From contig NZ_JACEOG010000001.1 of assembly GCF_013868155.1 (NCBI RefSeq), forward strand, positions 62,001-126,000: a DNA stretch of 64,000 bases, written 5' to 3'. The notes under the pieces were generated by a model. It searched no databases. It was not told the DNA's origin and saw only the letters and a program-made list of their open reading frames with translations. Made by a program: the position numbers and the translations under genes. Below are positions 3,001 to 53,619 of the stretch, piece after piece (position 1 is the stretch's first letter; every line of letters starts with the position of its first letter). This DNA is from Aeromicrobium phoceense. Its GTDB lineage: Bacteria; Actinomycetota; Actinomycetes; Propionibacteriales; Nocardioidaceae.

Positions 3001-5727
3001 GCGGCGAGCCGGCACGCGCTGCGGGGCGCGGCCCGAGGCGAGCAGGGCGTCGACCGCGGCGTCCTCGAAGCGCTGCAGCAGCTCGGCGACGGGCTCGTCG
3101 ACGCGGGTGATGCCCCCGACGCTGGCCGTGCCGGGGATGATGCAGACCTCGTCGGCCCCGTAGCGCGGGTCGTGCGCCTGCCACAGGGAGTCCGAGCGCC
3201 ACCAGCGACGCACGTCGGCGTCGACGACCGGCACGAAGTTCACGGGCTTGCCGGCCCGGCGGCAGACCTCGACGAAGAACGCCTCGTCGGCCGGGTGCAG
3301 GGTCACGGAGGAGGCGTCGGGGTACGCCGCGAGCAGGCGGTCGAGGGCGGCCGGGCCGTCCTCGACGTCGGTCGGCTCGGCGAAGAGCGTGGCGATCTCG
3401 CCACGGTCCTGCTCGGCGAGGCGGGCCTCGGCGCGCTGCGCCAGGGCGTGGAACCGGTCGCGCAGCGACACGTCGAGCCACTGGGCCGAGCCGTCGGCAG
3501 CGGTGCCGGAGAGCTCGACGAAGCGGCCGAGCCAGCGGGCGTAGGTCATCGCGGCGACGTCGCCGAAGTACGGCTTGGCGGTGCGGTCGAGGGCCTCGAC
3601 GATCTCGTCGCGGCGACGGGCGACCGCGTCGGCGTCGCCGGCGACCTCGTCGAGGAGGCGGCCGGTGCGCGAGGCGGGGTTGTCGATCTCGTGGATGTCG
3701 GCGCCGAGCTGGCTGCGGCCCGAGGCCATGCCGTTCTTGGCGGTGCCGGCGCCGACCCAGGCGCCGGTGCCGCGGGTCTCGACGAGCATCTGCTTGACCT
3801 CGGGGGCCGTCGTGGCCTCGAGCGTCGCCATGGCGGCGGTGCCGACGAGGATGCCGTCGACGGGCATGTCGGGGAAGCCGTGGCGCTGGGCCCACGTGCC
3901 GGTCAGCCACGCGGCCGCGGCGTCGGAGGTGCCGATGCCGCCGCCGACGCACAGCACGACGTTCGACTGGGCGCGCAGCTCGCCGTAGGTGGCCAGGATC
4001 AGGTCGTCCAGGTCCTCCCACGAGTGGTGGCCACCGGCGCGGCCTCCCTCGACCTGCACGATGACGGTGCGGTCGACCTTCTTGGCGATCGCGAGGACCT
4101 CGCGGATCTGGCGCACCGTGCCGGGCTTGAACACGACGTGCTCGATGCCGGCCTCGGTCAGCTCGTCAACGAGGGCGACGGCCTCGTCGAGCTCGGGGAT
4201 GCCGGCCGTCACGATGACGGCGTCGATCGGGGCGCCGGCGGCGCGCGCGCGCTGGACGAGCCGGTTCTGGCCCAGCTGCAGGCGCCACAGGTAGGGATCG
4301 AGGAAGAGCGAGTTGAACTGGTAGGTCGCGCCCTCGTCGAGCAGCGAGTCCAGCTCGGCGATGCGGGCGTCGAAGATCTCCTCGGTCACCTGGCCGCCAC
4401 CGGCGAGCTCGGACCAGAAGCCGGCGTTGGCCGCGGCGGCCACGATCGGCGCGTCCACGGTGGTGGGCGTCATGCCCGCGAGCAGGATCGGCGACTTGCC
4501 GGTGGCGCGGGTGAACGCGGTCTCGACCGAGGTGGAGCCGTCGGGCAGCGTCACGAGGCGCGGCGCGAAGGTGGACCACGCGACCGGGACGGCGGGGCGA
4601 GCGCCGGTGATCGTCAGCTCGCGGTGGCCACGACGCGGCGTGGGGGCCACCAGGCCGACGCCGCGCGAGCGGGTCTCGGCGGCGGTGAGGCGCGAGGCGA
4701 GGTCGCCGGGCCCGAGGTCGAGGACCCACTCGGCTCCGGCGTCCAGTGCGGCGGTGACGTCGACGACCCAGTCGACCGGGTCGATGATGGCGCGCTGCGT
4801 CGCGTGGCGGGCGTGCTCGGCGTCGATGCCGATGCGGGCCGCCCACTCGGCCACGAGGTCGGCCGTCTCGGCGAGGTCGGGGTGGTGGAACGCGAGGGCG
4901 GACTCGACCGGCTCGATCACCGGGGAGAACGGCGCACCGCCGGTGACCTTGCGCTCGCGCTCGTCCTTCTCGTCGGCGGCCACCTGCTCGAGGCGGGCGG
5001 TGGCGGCGGCGAGGGCCGCGGACGGACCGGACAGCACCACGGAGCGGCGCCCGTTGCGGATGTGGCAGACGGCGCCGGTGCCCTCGACGATGGCGGCGAC
5101 GCGCTCGGGGACGACTCCCGAGACGGCCAGCATCGTCTGTCCGAGCAGCCCGCGGCGGCGGCCGACGACCTGCGCGGCGGCACCGACCAGGCGGGCCAGC
5201 GCGAGCACCTCGACGTCCGGGACGCCGGCGAGCGCCTCAGCGGCGAGGACGCCCTGCGAGTGGCCGGCCACGGCGACGGGCGGGTGGGCGGCGACGTCGA
5301 GACCCTGGCGCGTCAGCGCGCGCAGACCGGCGAGCTGCGCGAGGGTGATGCCGGGGACCGAGGCGGCCGGGGCCGTGACGTCGGCACCGGCGGGCAGGCC
5401 CGGGGCGTCGTCGTCCTCGGCGGACTCGCCGACGGCGAGCACGTCCACCCACGCCACGGGGTCGAAGGCGACGCCCGCACGGGCGAGCTCGGTGGCCACG
5501 GGCGCCAGCATGCGGTCCGAGCGGCGCACGAGGTCGGCGACGTCGGCGTCCAGCGCGAAGTCGCGGACGAGGTCGGCCAGCGGGCCGAGCCAGTCCCCGC
5601 CCTGTCCGCCGAAGACCAGGGCCCACGGCGTGCCTGAGCGCAGGTCGTCGAGCAGGCTGTCGGTGCGGCGGTCGCGGGAGGTCGGGGCGTGGAACACAGA
5701 GGTGTCGAGCGTCGTCATGTCATCCAT
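1..5727 (-). CDS. fas: Type I fatty acid synthase, N-terminal 1909 residues (runs off the left edge)
   Basis: Large multifunctional enzyme for de novo synthesis of fatty acyl-CoA from acetyl- and malonyl-CoA. The minus-strand frame is open from an ATG at 5727 (or the in-frame ATG at 5718) to base 1. Visible in order: acyltransferase with GHSQG near residue 155; flavin-type enoyl reductase with a GGGIGT glycine motif near 595; hot-dog dehydratase with GDHNPIH near 1200; malonyl/palmitoyl transferase with GHSVGEYNAL near 1403; an Ala/Pro linker; and an acyl-carrier segment with DGASSRRNQL, whose first Ser (about 1763) is the likely phosphopantetheine site. This is the actinobacterial FAS-I order. 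Ketoreductase and ketosynthase domains expected after the carrier lie outside the window. Two tandem palindromes precede the start and probably control it. Identification is secure; the exact start is not. Confidence 0.96.
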   Translation of the reverse strand, partial: MDDMTTLDTSVFHAPTSRDRRTDSLLDDLRSGTPWALVFGGQGGDWLGPLADLVRDFALDADVADLVRRSDRMLAPVATELARAGVAFDPVAWVDVLAVGESAEDDDAPGLPAGADVTAPAASVPGITLAQLAGLRALTRQGLDVAAHPPVAVAGHSQGVLAAEALAGVPDVEVLALARLVGAAAQVVGRRRGLLGQTMLAVSGVVPERVAAIVEGTGAVCHIRNGRRSVVLSGPSAALAAATARLEQVAADEKDERERKVTGGAPFSPVIEPVESALAFHHPDLAETADLVAEWAARIGIDAEHARHATQRAIIDPVDWVVDVTAALDAGAEWVLDLGPGDLASRLTAAETRSRGVGLVAPTPRRGHRELTITGARPAVPVAWSTFAPRLVTLPDGSTSVETAFTRATGKSPILLAGMTPTTVDAPIVAAAANAGFWSELAGGGQVTEEIFDARIAELDSLLDEGATYQFNSLFLDPYLWRLQLGQNRLVQRARAAGAPIDAVIVTAGIPELDEAVALVDELTEAGIEHVVFKPGTVRQIREVLAIAKKVDRTVIVQVEGGRAGGHHSWEDLDDLILATYGELRAQSNVVLCVGGGIGTSDAAAAWLTGTWAQRHGFPDMPVDGILVGTAAMATLEATTAPEVKQMLVETRGTGAWVGAGTAKNGMASGRSQLGADIHEIDNPASRTGRLLDEVAGDADAVARRRDEIVEALDRTAKPYFGDVAAMTYARWLGRFVELSGTAADGSAQWLDVSLRDRFHALAQRAEARLAEQDRGEIATLFAEPTDVEDGPAALDRLLAAYPDASSVTLHPADEAFFVEVCRRAGKPVNFVPVVDADVRRWWRSDSLWQAHDPRYGADEVCIIPGTASVGGITRVDEPVAELLQRFEDAAVDALLASGRAPQRVPARRREGDSRLAAPLAVVLAAPDVVWAGRTVTNPVHRLGAEWVLTDTDSAEQAATGARLVASGDSAADLTVPLGHGRELTLRIEVPSGAARGHAPVVTTDAAVSAMAQIVSGAVAGSLPEVSDGVAHLDVDWDPDLAADHAAVSAGPLVLGRHRVPDVLVGLAWPAVFAVIGDARNAEGVPVVEGMLDLVHLDHAITAQALPTERTSLGIRAALTGVEESQYGRVVTVDVTVGDVATMRERFAIRGRTGAASLADPARAGDVLGDDEVKDTPRRTRARVTVTAPSDLGAFASVTGDHNPIHTSVAAARLAGLGAPIVHGMWTSAAAQHAVSDETGRRIAGWTTRFMAPVAPGAEVEVRADRVGLSHGREVLDVTVRAEGEIVMAASAVLDAPRTAYAFPGQGIQSPGMGMAGYQRCPAAREVWDRADKHTRSALGFSILTVVRDNPTDLTVRGVTHHHPDGVLYLTQFTQVAMAVLGAAQMAELREGGAFVDGAVLAGHSVGEYNALAAVSGVISLEAVVEVVFQRGSVMHTLVPRDEKGRSDYRLAAIRPSQIGLADDEVKDYVEGLGEASGEFLQIVNYNMRGSQYAIAGTVRGLEVLEKDVAERRDRFGGKAAFILVPGIDVPFHSRVLHGGVPDFRHKLQELLPPSIDPSILEGRYVPNLVPKPFSLDEDFIREVEEYVGTTVPRSEDPGMLCRDLLIELLAWQFASPVRWIETQDLMFTPVEEGGLGVERFVEVGVGSAPTVANLAAGTLKLPGYPSVEVLNVERDAAAVYGTDEDPAPVEDEAPESTVETSAPQQAAAPAAAPAGGPATQTAADLPFSAADATKVLIAWWTKLHLDQLGAADTIESLTDGASSRRNQLLIDLGGELSLGAIDGAAEADIVTLGGQVDALARTYKPFGPVLAEAFGDHLKKVLGPTGRKQSAVAERVTGAWQLGSGWASHVLAELAMVTREGQSVRGGAFGEASIASAGDVDAAIDAAVQAVASRHGVTVQMPSAGGGD

Positions 5728-46972: not shown

Positions 46973-47007
46973 AAGGTGGCCCTTGTCCTACGGGACGGGG
47001 CCACCTT
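46973..47007 (+). terminator. Terminator after the 46379 gene
   Basis: AAGGTGGCCC (46973-46982) pairs with GGGCCACCTT (46998-47007); GTCC/GGAC extends the stem inside. It starts 18 bases after the stop and ends before the accA3 start. Confidence 0.75.
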
Positions 47008-47066
47008 CGCCGTTCCAGACCCTGCGCCATAGACTCGCCACTGCCGTTCAGACGCGAGGAGTATTC

Positions 47067-48827
47067 GTGAGCAAGCCCCTGCAGAAGGTCCTGGTCGCCA
47101 ACCGTGGCGAGATCGCGGTCCGCGTGATCCGCGCCGCGAAGGATTCCGGAATCGCCAGCGTGGCGGTCTACGCCGAGCCCGACCGTGACGCGCTGTTCGT
47201 GCGCCTCGCCGACGAGGCCTATTCGCTCGAGGGCTCGACCCCCGGCGACTCCTACCTGTCGATCGAGAAGATCATCGCGGTCGCCCAGCGCTCCGGCGCC
47301 GACAGCGTGCACCCCGGCTACGGCTTCCTGGCCGAGAACGCCGACTTCGCCCAGGCCGTCATCGACGCCGGGCTGATCTGGATCGGCCCGCCGCCGGCCG
47401 CGATCGAGAGCCTCGGCGACAAGGCCAAGGCCAAGCACATCGCGCAGATCGCCGACGCGCCGCTGGCGCCCGGCACCAAGGACCCGGTCAAGGACGCCGA
47501 CGAGGTCGTCGCGTTCGCGCAGGAGCACGGCCTGCCGGTCGCCATCAAGGCGGTCTTCGGTGGCGGTGGCCGCGGCCTCAAGGTCGCCAAGACGATCGAG
47601 GAGATCCCCGAGGCCTACGAGTCCGCCGTCCGCGAGGCCGTCAGCGCCTTCGGCCGCGGCGAGTGCCTCGTGGAGAAGTTCCTCGACAAGCCCCGTCACG
47701 TCGAGACCCAGTGCCTGGCCGACAGCCACGGCAACGTCGTGGTCGTGTCTACCCGCGACTGCTCGCTGCAGCGTCGCCACCAGAAGCTCGTCGAGGAGGC
47801 CCCGGCACCGTTCCTGTCCGAGGACCAGCTCGAGCGCCTCTACGCCTCCTCCAAGGCGATCCTCAAGGAGGCCGGCTACGTCGGCGCCGGAACCTGCGAG
47901 TTCCTCGTCGCCCGCGACGGCACCATCAGCTTCCTCGAGGTCAACACCCGCCTGCAGGTGGAGCACCCGGTCTCCGAGGAGGTCACCGGCATCGACCTCG
48001 TCCGCGAGATGTTCCGGATCGCCGCCGGCGAGGAGCTCGGCTACGACGACCCCGAGATCATCGGGCACTCGATCGAGTTCCGCATCAACGCCGAGGACGG
48101 CGGCCGCGGCTTCCTGCCCGCCCCCGGCACCCTGACCAAGTGGGCGCCCCCGTCGGGCCCCGGCGTCCGCCTCGACGCCGGCTACGAGGAGGGCGAGACC
48201 GTCCCGGGCGCGTTCGACTCCCTCGTCGCCAAGCTGATCGTCACGGGCCGCACGCGTGAGCAGGCCATCGAGCGCTCGCGTCGCGCGCTGGACGAGTTCG
48301 TCGTCGAGGGCATGCCCACGGTGATCCCGTTCCACCGCGACGTGCTCGACGACGCCGCCTACAACGCGTCCGAGGGATCGTTCGACGTCTACACGACGTG
48401 GATCGAGACCGACTACGACAACCAGCTCGAGCCCTACTCGGGCCCGTCCGAGACCGACGAGCCGGGCGAGCGCGAGCGCGTCACGGTCGAGGTCGGCGGC
48501 AAGCGCGTGGAGGTCGTCCTGCCGGGCGGCCTGGGCGCGAGCGCGGCTGCGACGGGCACCAAGAAGGCCAAGCGCAAGGCCGGCAAGTCGGCAGGTGCGG
48601 CCGCCAGCGGCGACTCGCTGACCTCGCCCATGCAGGGCACCGTCGTCAAGCTCGCCGTCGAGGAGGGCCAGGAGGTCGCCGAGGGCGACCTGGTCCTGGT
48701 CATCGAGGCGATGAAGATGGAGCAGCCGATCAACGCCCACAAGGCGGGCACCGTCACCGGCCTGTCCGCCGCCATCGGCGAGACCGTCGGCGCCGGCGCG
48801 GTCATCTGCGACCTCAAGGACGCCTGA
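47067..48827 (+). CDS. accA3: Acyl-CoA carboxylase alpha subunit AccA3 (biotin carboxylase + carrier)
   Basis: 586 residues. Biotin carboxylase domain (ATP-grasp): [19 protein letters not shown] start, [15 protein letters not shown], the Gly loop [10 protein letters not shown] near 170, and [20 protein letters not shown] with catalytic residues. After a Lys/Ala linker comes a biotinyl domain with EAMKMEQ, Lys550 being the biotinylation site. It carboxylates biotin for AccD5 and other beta subunits. GTG at 47067 is preceded by GAGGAG; longer upstream frame not needed. Confidence 0.96.
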
Positions 48828-48846
48828 GCCACACCGCACCACCCCG

Positions 48847-48875
48847 CGACGCCCCGGTCCTCGACCGGGGCGTCG
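48847..48875. terminator. Terminator after accA3
   Basis: CGACGCCCCGGTC and GACCGGGGCGTCG form a perfect 13-base stem with a 3-base loop (CTC). It lies 20 bases after the accA3 stop and 11 bases from the converging small-gene stop, so may serve both. Confidence 0.85.
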
Positions 48876-48886
48876 TCGCGTTCGGG

Positions 48887-49048
48887 TCAGCGCCCCAGGA
48901 TCCGGCTCAGCCACCCTCCCTGGACGCTGTCCTCGTGGCCGCCGCACCACTGGCCCGGCGGGGTCGCGGCCCTGACGGCCGCCACGTGCTGCCCGCAACC
49001 GGCCCAGGTCGTCTTGCCGCACGTCCGGCATCGCGTGGGACGACACAT
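48887..49048 (-). CDS. Small Cys-rich zinc-ribbon-like protein (53 aa)
   Basis: 53 residues with Cys2, Cys7, Cys10, Cys18 and Cys35; the start MCRPTRCRTCGKTTWAGCGQ is a recurrent actinobacterial small protein whose CxxC-x7-C pattern suggests metal binding. Its ATG shares a base with the stop of the upstream AhpD-like gene (TGATG), so it is translated by reinitiation. Function unknown; a redox or metal role would fit the neighbours. Confidence 0.75.
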   Translation of the reverse strand: MCRPTRCRTCGKTTWAGCGQHVAAVRAATPPGQWCGGHEDSVQGGWLSRILGR

Positions 49049-49437
49049 CAGGACGCCCCCTCCCCCGCCTCGAGCGCGTCCGCGAAGTCGCACACGGCGC
49101 TGTAGGCGCGCGCGCCGTGGATCGTCGCCGGGCCCCCGTGCATGAGGAACGTGACGCCGATGGCCTCGGCCGCCTCCTCGCGGGTGGCACCGGCGCGTAC
49201 GGCCGCCTGGGCGTGCGAGGCGATGCAGCCGTCGCACCCCTCGACCACGCCGATCGCGAGGGCGATCAGCTCCTTGGTCCTGCGGTCCATCGCGCCGTCG
49301 GCGAAGGCGGCACCGGAGAGCTCGGCGAAGCCGCGGTAGACGTCCGGGATCGCGCGACGCAGCTGGCGGTGCAGCGGCGACAGGTCCTTCAGGACGGCCG
49401 GTCCGTGCTGTCCGGACTCAGGGGCGGAGTGACTCAT
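49048..49437 (-). CDS. Carboxymuconolactone decarboxylase/AhpD-like protein
   Basis: 129 residues, all-helical. Glu66, Cys68, Cys71 and His75 (EGCDGCIASH) form the AhpD active-site set of a thiol peroxidase/reductase. Likely reduces peroxide, persulfide or another oxidised thiol. It is divergent from a DUF302-CsoR operon and the twin operators in the gap may control it too. ATG at 49437. Confidence 0.88.
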   Translation of the reverse strand: MSHSAPESGQHGPAVLKDLSPLHRQLRRAIPDVYRGFAELSGAAFADGAMDRRTKELIALAIGVVEGCDGCIASHAQAAVRAGATREEAAEAIGVTFLMHGGPATIHGARAYSAVCDFADALEAGEGAS

Positions 49438-49457
49438 TCGACACCTCTCGTTGCGGG

Positions 49458-49513
49458 TTGGCTGTATCCCCCCAGGGGGTTAAGATAGAGCCTACCGACG
49501 ACCCCCCAGGGGG
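49458..49513 (+). promoter_or_regulatory. Promoter with twin CsoR-family operators
   Basis: TTGGCT (49458-49463), a 17-base spacer and TAAGAT (49481-49486) form a good promoter. CCCCCCAGGGGG occurs twice, at 49468-49479 inside the spacer and at 49502-49513 just after the predicted transcript start, 34 bases apart. C-tract/G-tract inverted repeats are typical CsoR/CstR operators. A Shine-Dalgarno sequence (GAAGGGA) follows before the ATG at 49534. Confidence 0.8.
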
Positions 49514-49533
49514 ATCAAGAGAAGGGATGCACC

Positions 49534-49956
49534 ATGACGGACTTCACTCTCAGCGCGACCGTGCCCCAGCCCTACGAGCAGACGCTGGAGCGCGTCCGAG
49601 CGCTCCTGGTCGATGCGGGCTTCGGCGTGCTGACCGAGATCGATCTCCGGGCCACACTGCGCGCGAAGCTGGGTGTCGAGACCCCGCCCCGCGTGATCCT
49701 CGGCGCCTGCCGTCCCGAGCTCGCGCACCGCGCCCTGGCCACCGACCCGCGCATCGCGACGCTGCTGCCGTGCAACGTGGTCGTGACCGCGAGCGGCGAC
49801 GGCAGCCGGGTCGACGTCCTGGACCCCGCCGTCATGACCGAGCTGGGTTCGTCCGCCGAGCTCGACGAGGTGGCCGCCGAGGCACGTCGCCGGCTCACCG
49901 GCATGATGGACGCACTGGTCCACCACGAGGAGGTCGACGATGCAGCTCGAGCCTGA
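49534..49956 (+). CDS. DUF302 family protein
   Basis: 140 residues. The alpha/beta DUF302 fold: PYEQTLERVRALLVDAGFGVLTEID, then RVILGACRPELAHRALATD and LLPCNVVVTASGDG. Function unknown; DUF302 genes commonly sit in sulfide or persulfide (CstR-type) regulons. Two cysteines (in GACRPE and LPCNV) are at the usual family positions. Overlaps the next gene by 17 bases. Confidence 0.9.
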   Translation: MTDFTLSATVPQPYEQTLERVRALLVDAGFGVLTEIDLRATLRAKLGVETPPRVILGACRPELAHRALATDPRIATLLPCNVVVTASGDGSRVDVLDPAVMTELGSSAELDEVAAEARRRLTGMMDALVHHEEVDDAARA

Positions 49957-50200
49957 CGAGGTCAAGGCGATCGCCACCCGGCTGAAGCGGGCGAACGGCC
50001 ACCTCGCATCCGTGATCCGGATGCTCGAGGAGGGCACCGAGTGCGAGGACGCGCTCACCCAGCTCGCCGCGGTCAACAAGGCGATCGCGCGGAGCGGCTA
50101 CGCGCTCGTGTCGACCGGACTGCAGAAGTGCCTGGTCGAGGAGGGCCCCGACAGCGTCGACAGCAAGAAGCTGGAGAAGCTCTTCCTGGCGCTGGCCTGA
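49940..50200 (+). CDS. CsoR-family repressor, CstR-like (two Cys, no His)
   Basis: 86-residue all-helical repressor. Cys35 and Cys64 are 29 residues apart, as in the family, but the position four before Cys64, which is His in copper-sensing CsoR, is Gly60 (STGLQKC). It therefore lacks a copper ligand and matches the layout of persulfide sensors such as CstR. It should repress its own DUF302 operon through the twin operators upstream. ATG at 49940. Confidence 0.88.
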   Translation: MQLEPDEVKAIATRLKRANGHLASVIRMLEEGTECEDALTQLAAVNKAIARSGYALVSTGLQKCLVEEGPDSVDSKKLEKLFLALA

Positions 50201-50670: not shown

Positions 50671-53619
50671 TCAGAAGCCGAACCAGTCCGACTTCAGCCC
50701 GAACGCCCAGCGCGCGTCGACGCCCGTGATGGTGCGGCTCGCCTTGGAGCCCTGCAGCTTCAGCGAGACCACGCGGCCGCCCAGCGAGCCGTGACCGTTG
50801 CGCTTCGTCACCGTGATCGACGTCAGCTTCCCGATCGTCGGGTACTTCTTCTGGATCGCCGAGGCGCTCACCGCGTGGCTCCACGCGTGGTTTCGGTTGC
50901 CCGACCAGTTGTCCCACGGGTCACTGACCGCCTTGAGGTACGGCGTCGAGCCCTGGTTGGTGAAGCCGCCCGACGAGCTCGAGAACTGCGTCAGCGCCGG
51001 CGCACCCTGGTAGGTCAGGATCTTGCCCTTGGTCCCGAGGATCGCGTCGTTGGTGCGCTTCGTCTCGTCGGCGTACCCGCCGTAGACCTGGCACGAGACG
51101 GTGTCGCAGATGTCGTAGTGCCGCGACGACCCGAGGTAGCGCGAGCCGAAGGTGCGCGCGGCGACCGACTGCGCCTTGAGCGCCTCCATGCTCCAGCTCG
51201 ACGGCATCTCGCGAGCCACGACGCCGCGGACGTAGGCCTCGAGGCTCAGGACGTTCACCGTGTCGCGCGTGGTCTTCGTCGGCTTTGCGGAGCGGAGCGC
51301 GCCCCGGTAGGCGCGGGTGCTGCCGTTCGGCATCACCAACCGGATGGTCGCCGGGCCCTCGAATTGGGCGTCGGACTTGAACGTGCGGAACGCGTACCAG
51401 GCCGAGCCGGACTTGTAGGAGACCGTGTTCAGGCCGCGGTTGCTCGGGGCGGTGTCGATCGTCCAGTCCGAGACCGTCCGCGAACCCACCTTGGCGGGCA
51501 ACGCCTGGACGGCGTTGTTGGCCAGCGTGCGCAGCTTCAGCCCGCTCTGGTGCTTCACCTGGACCGAGTTCGTGGTGTCGGCCGAGACCTGCACGCGGAT
51601 CGTGGCGGACTTGAACGTCAGCTTCGTGCCCGGGTAGTACTTCTTGAGGATCGCGTCGTACTTCTGGCCGGCGCGGGCGCCGCCCTCGGCGCCGTACTGG
51701 CTCATCCCGATGCCGTGCCCGTAGCCGTGGCCCTTGAACGTCACCTTGCCGCCTGACGGCTTGACGACGTTGCGCGCCGAGGGGGCGGGCGCGGGGGCCG
51801 GCTTCGGTGCGGGCTTCGGCGCCGTGCTCGTCGCGCCCAGCGTGGCGCCGGCGGGGTAGGGCTTGGCCGAGTAGGCGCTCACGCGCTCCCCCGTGCCGGG
51901 CGAGAAGACCGAGACGCGCACCTGGTACTTGCCGCCCCGCTTCAGATTCTTGATAGCGACGGCGTTCTTGTAGGCCGTGACGTAGCGCTTCTTCGTCGTG
52001 CCGGTCTCCCAGTACATGACGCGGTAGGCCGGAGCGCCCGCCTGCGCCTTCCAGGCGAACCGCAGGCCCGTCGAGGTCCTCGTGGTCAGCTTGACGCCCG
52101 TGGGGGCCGTGAAGGCCCGCGTACGCGCCGTGGGCATGGGCTTGGCCGTGTAGGGGCTCACGCGCTTCTTGGCCGTCGGGTTCCACACCGACACCCGGAA
52201 CACGTAGGTGCGGCGCGAGTACAGGCCGGTGATCGTCGCGGACGTGGCGCCGACGTTGTAGTACTTCGCGCCGGCCGAGCTGCCCGTCGGCGAGACCATC
52301 ACCCGGTAGCCCGGAGCACCCGCGACGGCCGCCCAGGAGACCTTCGCCGACGTCGTCGACGCGGACACCTTGACCCCCTTGGGCGTCGCGTAGGTCTTGA
52401 TCGGGGCCGGGGCCGCCGTCGGGGCGCCCGCGGCCGAGGTGGCCTTGGAGACGTACGTGCTGGTGCGGTCGCGCAGGCCGCCGACGGCGCCGATCCACGC
52501 GTACCCGTACTTGCCGGGGCATCCGGTCGACGTCACGTTGCGGTGGCCGTTGATGACCGAGTACCGCTTTCCGCCGGTCGCGTAGGTGCCCTTCGGGTTC
52601 GCACCGAAGAACTTCAGCCGCCAGCCGGCGAGCCGCACGACCGCGGACTGCATCGCGGCGCTGGGCTTCACGTAGTCGAAGTGGCCCATCATCGAGATGC
52701 CCGTGGCGTACTGGTTCACCGCGTCGACGCCCGAGTGCGCGGCACGCACCTGCTTGGTCATGCCGCCCTTGCGGCCCTCGAAGATCTGGCCGAAGCGATC
52801 GACGAGGAAGTTGTAGCCGATGTCGCACCAACCACGGCCCTTGACGTGGTACGTCTGGTAGCTGCGCACGAGGCCCGCGGACTCGGACTTCGTGTAGGTG
52901 TTGGAGCCCGCCGTGTGGTGGATGACCACACCGAGGGCCTTGGGGCGGGTGACCGGGGCGCTGCAACTGGTGCCCGCGCCGGCCTTCCACTGCGCCCGCG
53001 TGATGATCGAGGGCATCGGCACGACCTTGGGGGTGCCGTCCGCGGCCACCGCCTCGGTGGTGCCTTCCTCCTCCTCGGAGAGGCTGTAGGACGCCGGGGT
53101 GACCGGCGTGACGACCTCGGGCTTGCCCGGGTCGATCGTCGTGACCTTGACGTCCTGGGCCGTGCCGGAGGCGGCCTTGACCTCGACGGCGACGCCATCG
53201 GCGGGAGCCTCGGTCCACAGCGGCGACGTCCCCGGGCGACCGCCGTCCGTGCTGTCCTCGACGTCGAGACGCTGCCAGTCGCTCCACGCGCCGTTCGTCC
53301 GCACCTGGACGCGCACCGTGACGTCGGCGGCGTCGGAGTCCGCGCCCCACGTGACGCCGACCATCCGGAACGGGTCCACGGTGGCGCGCTCGACGGCGTC
53401 ACCGTCGGCAGCGGGGTCGGGCTCGACGGCGGTCTGCTCGACCTCGACGGCCTCGGAGACCGGAGCGGTCGTGGTGGCCTCGGTGGGTGCCGTGGCGGCA
53501 GGGCGCGACACGACGATGTCGGTTCCGGCGGCCTGCGCGGGGGCAGGCAGCATCAAGCAGGCGCCGGCGACGGCGATCGTGGTCAGACCAATGCTGCAGC
53601 GGGTCAGCCAGGAATGCAT
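50671..53619 (-). CDS. Secreted amidase - FN3 - SpoIID/LytB fusion
   Basis: 982 residues. Signal peptide (1-30, cut after AQA); beta-rich region to 195; N-acetylmuramoyl-L-alanine amidase (about 203-390) with zinc ligands His234 (VIHHTAG), His359 and Cys367 (NGHRNVTSTGCPG); two FN3 domains (411-495, 504-588); Pro/Ala linker; and a SpoIID/LytB domain (620-982) with GHGYGHGIGMSQYGA at 630-644 and catalytic-type Glu804 in VAREMPSSW. SpoIID is a lytic transglycosylase for glycan stripped of peptides, so this protein may do both steps. In B. subtilis SpoIID the GHG motif comes after the Glu motif, here before it. ATG at 53619. Confidence 0.93.
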   Translation of the reverse strand: MHSWLTRCSIGLTTIAVAGACLMLPAPAQAAGTDIVVSRPAATAPTEATTTAPVSEAVEVEQTAVEPDPAADGDAVERATVDPFRMVGVTWGADSDAADVTVRVQVRTNGAWSDWQRLDVEDSTDGGRPGTSPLWTEAPADGVAVEVKAASGTAQDVKVTTIDPGKPEVVTPVTPASYSLSEEEEGTTEAVAADGTPKVVPMPSIITRAQWKAGAGTSCSAPVTRPKALGVVIHHTAGSNTYTKSESAGLVRSYQTYHVKGRGWCDIGYNFLVDRFGQIFEGRKGGMTKQVRAAHSGVDAVNQYATGISMMGHFDYVKPSAAMQSAVVRLAGWRLKFFGANPKGTYATGGKRYSVINGHRNVTSTGCPGKYGYAWIGAVGGLRDRTSTYVSKATSAAGAPTAAPAPIKTYATPKGVKVSASTTSAKVSWAAVAGAPGYRVMVSPTGSSAGAKYYNVGATSATITGLYSRRTYVFRVSVWNPTAKKRVSPYTAKPMPTARTRAFTAPTGVKLTTRTSTGLRFAWKAQAGAPAYRVMYWETGTTKKRYVTAYKNAVAIKNLKRGGKYQVRVSVFSPGTGERVSAYSAKPYPAGATLGATSTAPKPAPKPAPAPAPSARNVVKPSGGKVTFKGHGYGHGIGMSQYGAEGGARAGQKYDAILKKYYPGTKLTFKSATIRVQVSADTTNSVQVKHQSGLKLRTLANNAVQALPAKVGSRTVSDWTIDTAPSNRGLNTVSYKSGSAWYAFRTFKSDAQFEGPATIRLVMPNGSTRAYRGALRSAKPTKTTRDTVNVLSLEAYVRGVVAREMPSSWSMEALKAQSVAARTFGSRYLGSSRHYDICDTVSCQVYGGYADETKRTNDAILGTKGKILTYQGAPALTQFSSSSGGFTNQGSTPYLKAVSDPWDNWSGNRNHAWSHAVSASAIQKKYPTIGKLTSITVTKRNGHGSLGGRVVSLKLQGSKASRTITGVDARWAFGLKSDWFGF

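Follow-up and report, generated by a model that had tools for sequence, protein, structure and literature searches.

A probable sulfane-sulfur regulon in Aeromicrobium phoceense pairing a CstR-like repressor with AhpD-like, DUF302 and Cys/His-rich proteins

Two-cysteine repressors of the CsoR family have been described in several small sulfide and persulfide operons. In Streptomyces coelicolor, ScCsoR (SCO0620) represses the genes for a persulfide dioxygenase, a TauE protein and a rhodanese (SCO0618-SCO0621); it occupies two sites at the dioxygenase promoter and is released by polysulfide, Cys37 being persulfidated and Cys66 needed (PMC7533328). CstR of S. aureus and E. faecalis and YrkD of B. 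licheniformis are likewise two-Cys sulfane-sulfur repressors, and their operons carry rhodanese, dioxygenase and SQR genes (PMC5480029, PMC9918477). The SUL module of Antarctic Arthrobacter plasmids joins a CsoR-type regulator and DUF302 to the complete set of dioxygenase, rhodanese and TauE genes, along with an MFS transporter (PMC6305408). In the literature searched, the CsoR family together with DUF302, or CsoR together with persulfide and MmpL, occurred only in that last paper, and no paper was found placing AhpD or MMPL in such a regulon.

Here, we describe a locus of Aeromicrobium phoceense that resembles these systems in its regulator and departs from them in the genes regulated. It shares with ScCsoR a CsoR-family repressor, predicted autoregulation, two cysteines 29 residues apart and two operators at the promoter, whereas its effectors would be an AhpD-like protein, a mini-protein and DUF302 instead of persulfide dioxygenase, TauE and rhodanese, and its operator reads A[AT]CCCCCnnGGGGG[AT]T rather than ATACCn6GGTAT. 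The rhodanese, dioxygenase and SQR genes of the CstR and YrkD operons are missing from it. Conversely, AhpD and the mini-protein are absent from the annotated stretch of the SUL module (L114), whose repressor is 52% identical. The sensor type is already known; it is the effector set that is new. The locus lies at 48887-50200 of the window, by which we mean the whole 64,000-nucleotide stretch analysed, with the mini-protein and AhpD-like genes annotated leftward and DUF302 and CsoR rightward:

48887..49048, minus strand: Cys/His-rich mini-protein, an ORF of 53 residues, its start sharing bases with the AhpD stop in TGATG
49048..49437, minus strand: AhpD/CMD-family protein (PF02627, E=4e-23; TIGR00778)
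49458..49486, plus strand: promoter-like TTGGCT-17 nt-TAAGAT towards DUF302/CsoR, read by eye, with operator 1 in its spacer
49468..49479, no strand: operator 1, CCCCCCAGGGGG inside TATCCCCCCAGGGGGTTA, exact match
49489..49518, minus strand: promoter-like TTGATC-18 nt-TAGGCT towards AhpD, read by eye, its spacer overlapped by operator 2
49502..49513, no strand: operator 2, CCCCCCAGGGGG, exact match, 34 bp from operator 1
49534..49956, plus strand: DUF302 protein (PF03625, E=1e-19)
49940..50200, plus strand: CsoR/CstR-family repressor with C35, G60 and C64 (PF02583, E=2.8e-19)

The gene content proposed in the initial annotation is borne out: Pfam assigns CMD, DUF302 and Trns_repr_metal to the divergent AhpD-like gene and the DUF302-CsoR pair, and the Cys-rich 53-residue protein has its open reading frame. 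The TGATG overlap couples the mini-protein translationally to AhpD, while the start of the CsoR gene and the end of the DUF302 gene share 17 nt. Between the AhpD and DUF302 genes lies a divergent region at 49438-49533, and it is here that both operators are found. In the whole genome of 3,270,508 bases, CCCCCCAGGGGG occurs exactly at these two places only, and the flanked pattern AWCCCCNNNNGGGGWT, with at most one mismatch allowed, has two credible places, which are again operators 1 and 2. A third flanked-pattern match, at C1:921177, was rejected as an operator on account of its broken core, as were the one-mismatch matches to CCCCCCAGGGGG or AWCCCCNNNNGGGGWT elsewhere in the genome, in which cores are broken or flanks missing. 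The description of the two operators as identical twins holds for the 12-nt cores, which are exact copies, but does not extend to the flanks (TATCCCCCCAGGGGGTTA versus CGACCCCCCAGGGGGATC).

Operator 1 fills the 17-nt spacer of the rightward promoter-like pair, and operator 2 comes after the probable rightward transcription start as judged from that pair, both as originally proposed; the overlap of operator 2 with the spacer of the leftward pair had been missed. Both pairs, being read by eye, score under the threshold of the consensus scanner, which reported no promoter or terminator over threshold at the locus. The nearest same-genus locus (L168), in which the repressor is 93% identical, the gene order identical and the twin CCCCCCAGGGGG sites also 34 bp apart, has the counterparts TTGGTT-17-TACGAT (rightward) and TTGAAC-18-TACGCT (leftward). 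Across all relatives operator 2 is preceded by a TTAGCA-like and followed by a TAnnnT-like hexamer in a register unlike that of the window, so the exact promoter use may have shifted between the relatives and the window.

Related loci (n=65) were collected by searching with the repressor protein, and 53 of them contain an operator pair of the general form NA[AT]CCCCCnnGGGGG[AT]TN, with centres 31-37 bp apart. A stronger test of non-chance than loci recovered through the repressor is a gene-blind search for the operator itself, for which the pattern AWCCCCCNNGGGGGWT was run against 59 related genomes with the reversed pattern as control. Of the 59 genomes, 17 gave matches, the window's included; not counting the latter, these fell at 21 separate places, mostly pairs, while the control gave a single match place in the same 59 genomes. 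Twenty of the 21 outside places were fetched, the remaining one, at a contig end, being left out, and all 20 lie at the module, beside CsoR, DUF302, AhpD, MMPL or dioxygenase genes; at one of them (L156) the gene is MMPL alone. Some arrangements vary. In an Aeromicrobium MAG (L072), four operators form two pairs, 34 bp apart within each, between AhpD and DUF302, inside the stretch of 160 bases (about 4330-4489) that leads up to the DUF302 gene. In another locus (L071), the usual pair gives way to two operator-like sites that lie further upstream of DUF302, around 4176-4209, and overlap each other at a distance of 16 bp, with a small ORF between.

The sensor question turns on the repressor's residues. 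Cys35, Cys64 and Gly60, named in the initial annotation, are confirmed in the sequence and in an alignment of homologues, where both cysteines are kept in 66 of 66 and the glycine in 65 of 66. The two cysteines, 29 residues apart, align with Cys37 and Cys66 of a S. angustmyceticus protein (L116) that is 49% identical to the window repressor, carries Gly where copper sensors have His, and resembles ScCsoR in its flanking genes and doubled operator; matched by layout and numbering rather than against the SCO0620 sequence, it is presumably the counterpart of ScCsoR. The protein of solved structure 7mq1, which we take to be E. faecalis CstR, has Asn at that position, where the window repressor has Gly. 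These comparisons lend good support to a repressor that would sense through Cys35 and Cys64 and act at both operators.

Membership of PF02583 and a G/C-tract operator are features that the locus has in common with the copper CsoR/RicR proteins of Mycobacterium, and the best NCBIfam match is RicR, though far under the cut-off; the repressor might on that account be read as a copper(I) sensor of a copper-stress set. We consider this very improbable and rejected it on residues, gene content and the presence of a separate copper CsoR. The Mycobacterium proteins have a Cys-His-Cys site and control copper genes, whereas here the site is Cys-Gly-Cys, the third copper ligand, His, being Gly in all but one of the homologues, and the module is without copper genes. 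Copper, moreover, does not need this repressor, since the genome has another CsoR (L011) with Cys-His-Cys in canonical spacing, adjoining CopZ/CopA-like (HMA-domain, P-type ATPase) genes. The earlier view that copper is an unlikely ligand is thereby upheld. Copper-type CsoR is near universal among 49 same-genus genomes, about half of which carry the present repressor, which marks it as accessory.

Evidence for a persulfide ligand comes from sister loci. In about 25 relatives, dioxygenase, rhodanese and TauE genes lie divergently across the same operators from the same repressor, which DUF302 mostly accompanies; among solved structures, the closest in sequence to their dioxygenase are the MBL-rhodanese proteins 3tp9 and 3r2u. 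More distant homologues on Arthrobacter, Streptomyces and Mycolicibacterium plasmids adjoin dioxygenase-like MBL proteins, rhodaneses, TauE or FAD oxidoreductases. Together with the invariant cysteines, the precedent of ScCsoR (PMC7533328) and the separate copper CsoR, these loci support the CstR-like (persulfide) reading first suggested, and we estimate a probability of about 0.75 that the locus is a regulon of the ScCsoR/CstR type that responds to sulfane sulfur (persulfide/polysulfide) and includes its own repressor among its targets. As neither the locus nor the genome has a dioxygenase orthologue (best MBL matches 28-33%), we infer the ligand from the relatives. The reported absence of rhodanese and sulfide oxidase stands for the locus, where no dioxygenase was found either, but it is a local absence: relatives have such genes under the same operators, and the genome has rhodaneses elsewhere. 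Control of persulfide dioxygenase, rhodanese or TauE genes by the repressor was not found in the window, and the genome contains no other operator. Our literature search returned no binding, induction or enzyme data for the repressor's clade.

A general thiol-oxidation or electrophile sensor, working through a Cys35-Cys64' disulfide and governing an oxidative/electrophile regulon with AhpD as a peroxidase, would fit the complete catalytic site of AhpD and the dispensability of dioxygenase and rhodanese in loci of the AhpD type. It has precedents in the two-Cys CsoR TTHA1953, which no longer binds DNA once a disulfide has formed (PMC10318464), and in S. aureus CstR, which also reacts with HNO (PMC5480029). 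Such a sensor is nevertheless unlikely, given that the sister loci put dioxygenase, rhodanese and TauE under the same operators with closely similar repressors, and that ScCsoR responds to polysulfide (PMC7533328).

The related loci share the repressor and usually DUF302, while the divergent genes vary. In the dioxygenase type these are rhodanese, MBL-rhodanese dioxygenase and TauE, often with MMPL; in the AhpD type they are AhpD and the mini-protein, MMPL again being frequent; loci of a third group carry MMPL and neither AhpD nor dioxygenase. On a Tsukamurella plasmid the order is that of the window (mini-protein, CMD, DUF302, CsoR), and several same-genus loci are pared down to CsoR, AhpD and mini-protein. 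In L112, a Tsukamurella plasmid locus that may represent a further type of module, the same repressor is accompanied by MMPL, DUF2892, DsbA-like and FAD/NAD(P) oxidoreductase genes.

MMPL is present in 46 of the 65 loci, in dioxygenase and AhpD types alike, which favours a persulfide-type sensor for which sulfane sulfur is only the alarm, the effectors exporting or repairing a specific compound (e.g., a lipid or acyl-thiol) and MMPL being the ancestral main effector. This seems quite improbable, as MMPL is lacking from the window, L168 and several of the minimal same-genus loci (CsoR, AhpD and mini-protein only); the window's genome yielded no MMPL orthologue, only paralogues of 27-38%.

Under the sulfane-sulfur reading, AhpD and the mini-protein might form an alternative route of persulfide clearance, probably reductive and oxygen-independent, that takes the place of dioxygenase and rhodanese, a suggestion we make tentatively and with some doubt. 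The replacement of dioxygenase by AhpD is suggested by their non-overlap, AhpD occurring in 20 of the collected loci, dioxygenase in 25 and both in none, a pattern that shared ancestry could also produce. At the genome level, an AhpD match was absent from 13 of the 17 dioxygenase-type genomes searched and only distant in three; N. jensenii has a close match, beside MMPL and the mini-protein. In the other direction, roughly half of the 22 AhpD- or MMPL-type genomes searched have a dioxygenase elsewhere; in the remainder, as in the genome of the window, there was nothing better than weak MBL or rhodanese matches. Because the repressor tree (86 residues) is poorly resolved, we claim no number of independent swaps.

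The AhpD site Glu-x11-Cys-x2-Cys-x3-His is complete (E56, C68, C71, H75) and is found in all 20 aligned AhpD homologues covering that region. Since the site is complete, a role as dithiol reductase or peroxidase is plausible; its four residues presumably act as in mycobacterial AhpD, from which we assigned their roles. No ahpC was seen within 47.5-52.5 kb of the window. In DUF302, whose nearest solved structure is 1j3m, C59 and C80 are invariant (52/52 homologues). The Cys and His residues of the mini-protein are C2, C7, C10, C18, H21, C35 and H38, all but C2 being invariant in 15 homologues; it matched no Pfam family, and its AF2 model (mean pLDDT 77) gave no significant fold match in the PDB. 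Its family has the conserved consensus MCRPxxCxTCGKTTWAGCGQHVxxVxxxVPxxQWCxGH and recurs in AhpD and dioxygenase types alike, often at the operon end.

We propose that the reduced repressor would bind the two C5-6/G5-6 palindromes, one over each putative divergent promoter, and silence both AhpD-mini-protein and DUF302-CsoR. On a rise in persulfide, Cys35 would acquire a persulfide or become bridged to Cys64 of an adjacent subunit, upon which the modified repressor would leave the DNA and all four genes would be made. Their products would handle persulfides or oxidised thiols, AhpD as dithiol reductase or peroxidase and DUF302 and the mini-protein as thiol or metal-thiolate proteins, until sulfane sulfur drops and newly made reduced CsoR shuts the switch. 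Such a regulon would suggest a class of ligand, open to experiment, for a large group of proteins that are annotated only as metal-sensitive regulators. A single stress would then connect DUF302, the CMD/AhpD-like proteins, an MMPL subfamily and the Cys/His mini-protein, all four of them poorly understood. The reduction of some same-genus loci to repressor, AhpD and mini-protein offers a very small system that could show how persulfides are handled without a dioxygenase.

Two features adjoin the locus. A G+C-rich inverted repeat, GCCCCGGTCGAGGACCGGGGC, at 48840-48885, terminator-like but without a T run, sits between the mini-protein gene and a convergent biotin carboxylase-like gene (46983-48827, plus strand). 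On the other side, a large secreted protein is encoded at 50671-53619 (minus strand); amidase-like and SpoIID-like sequence was recognised in it by eye, and it is unrelated to the regulon.
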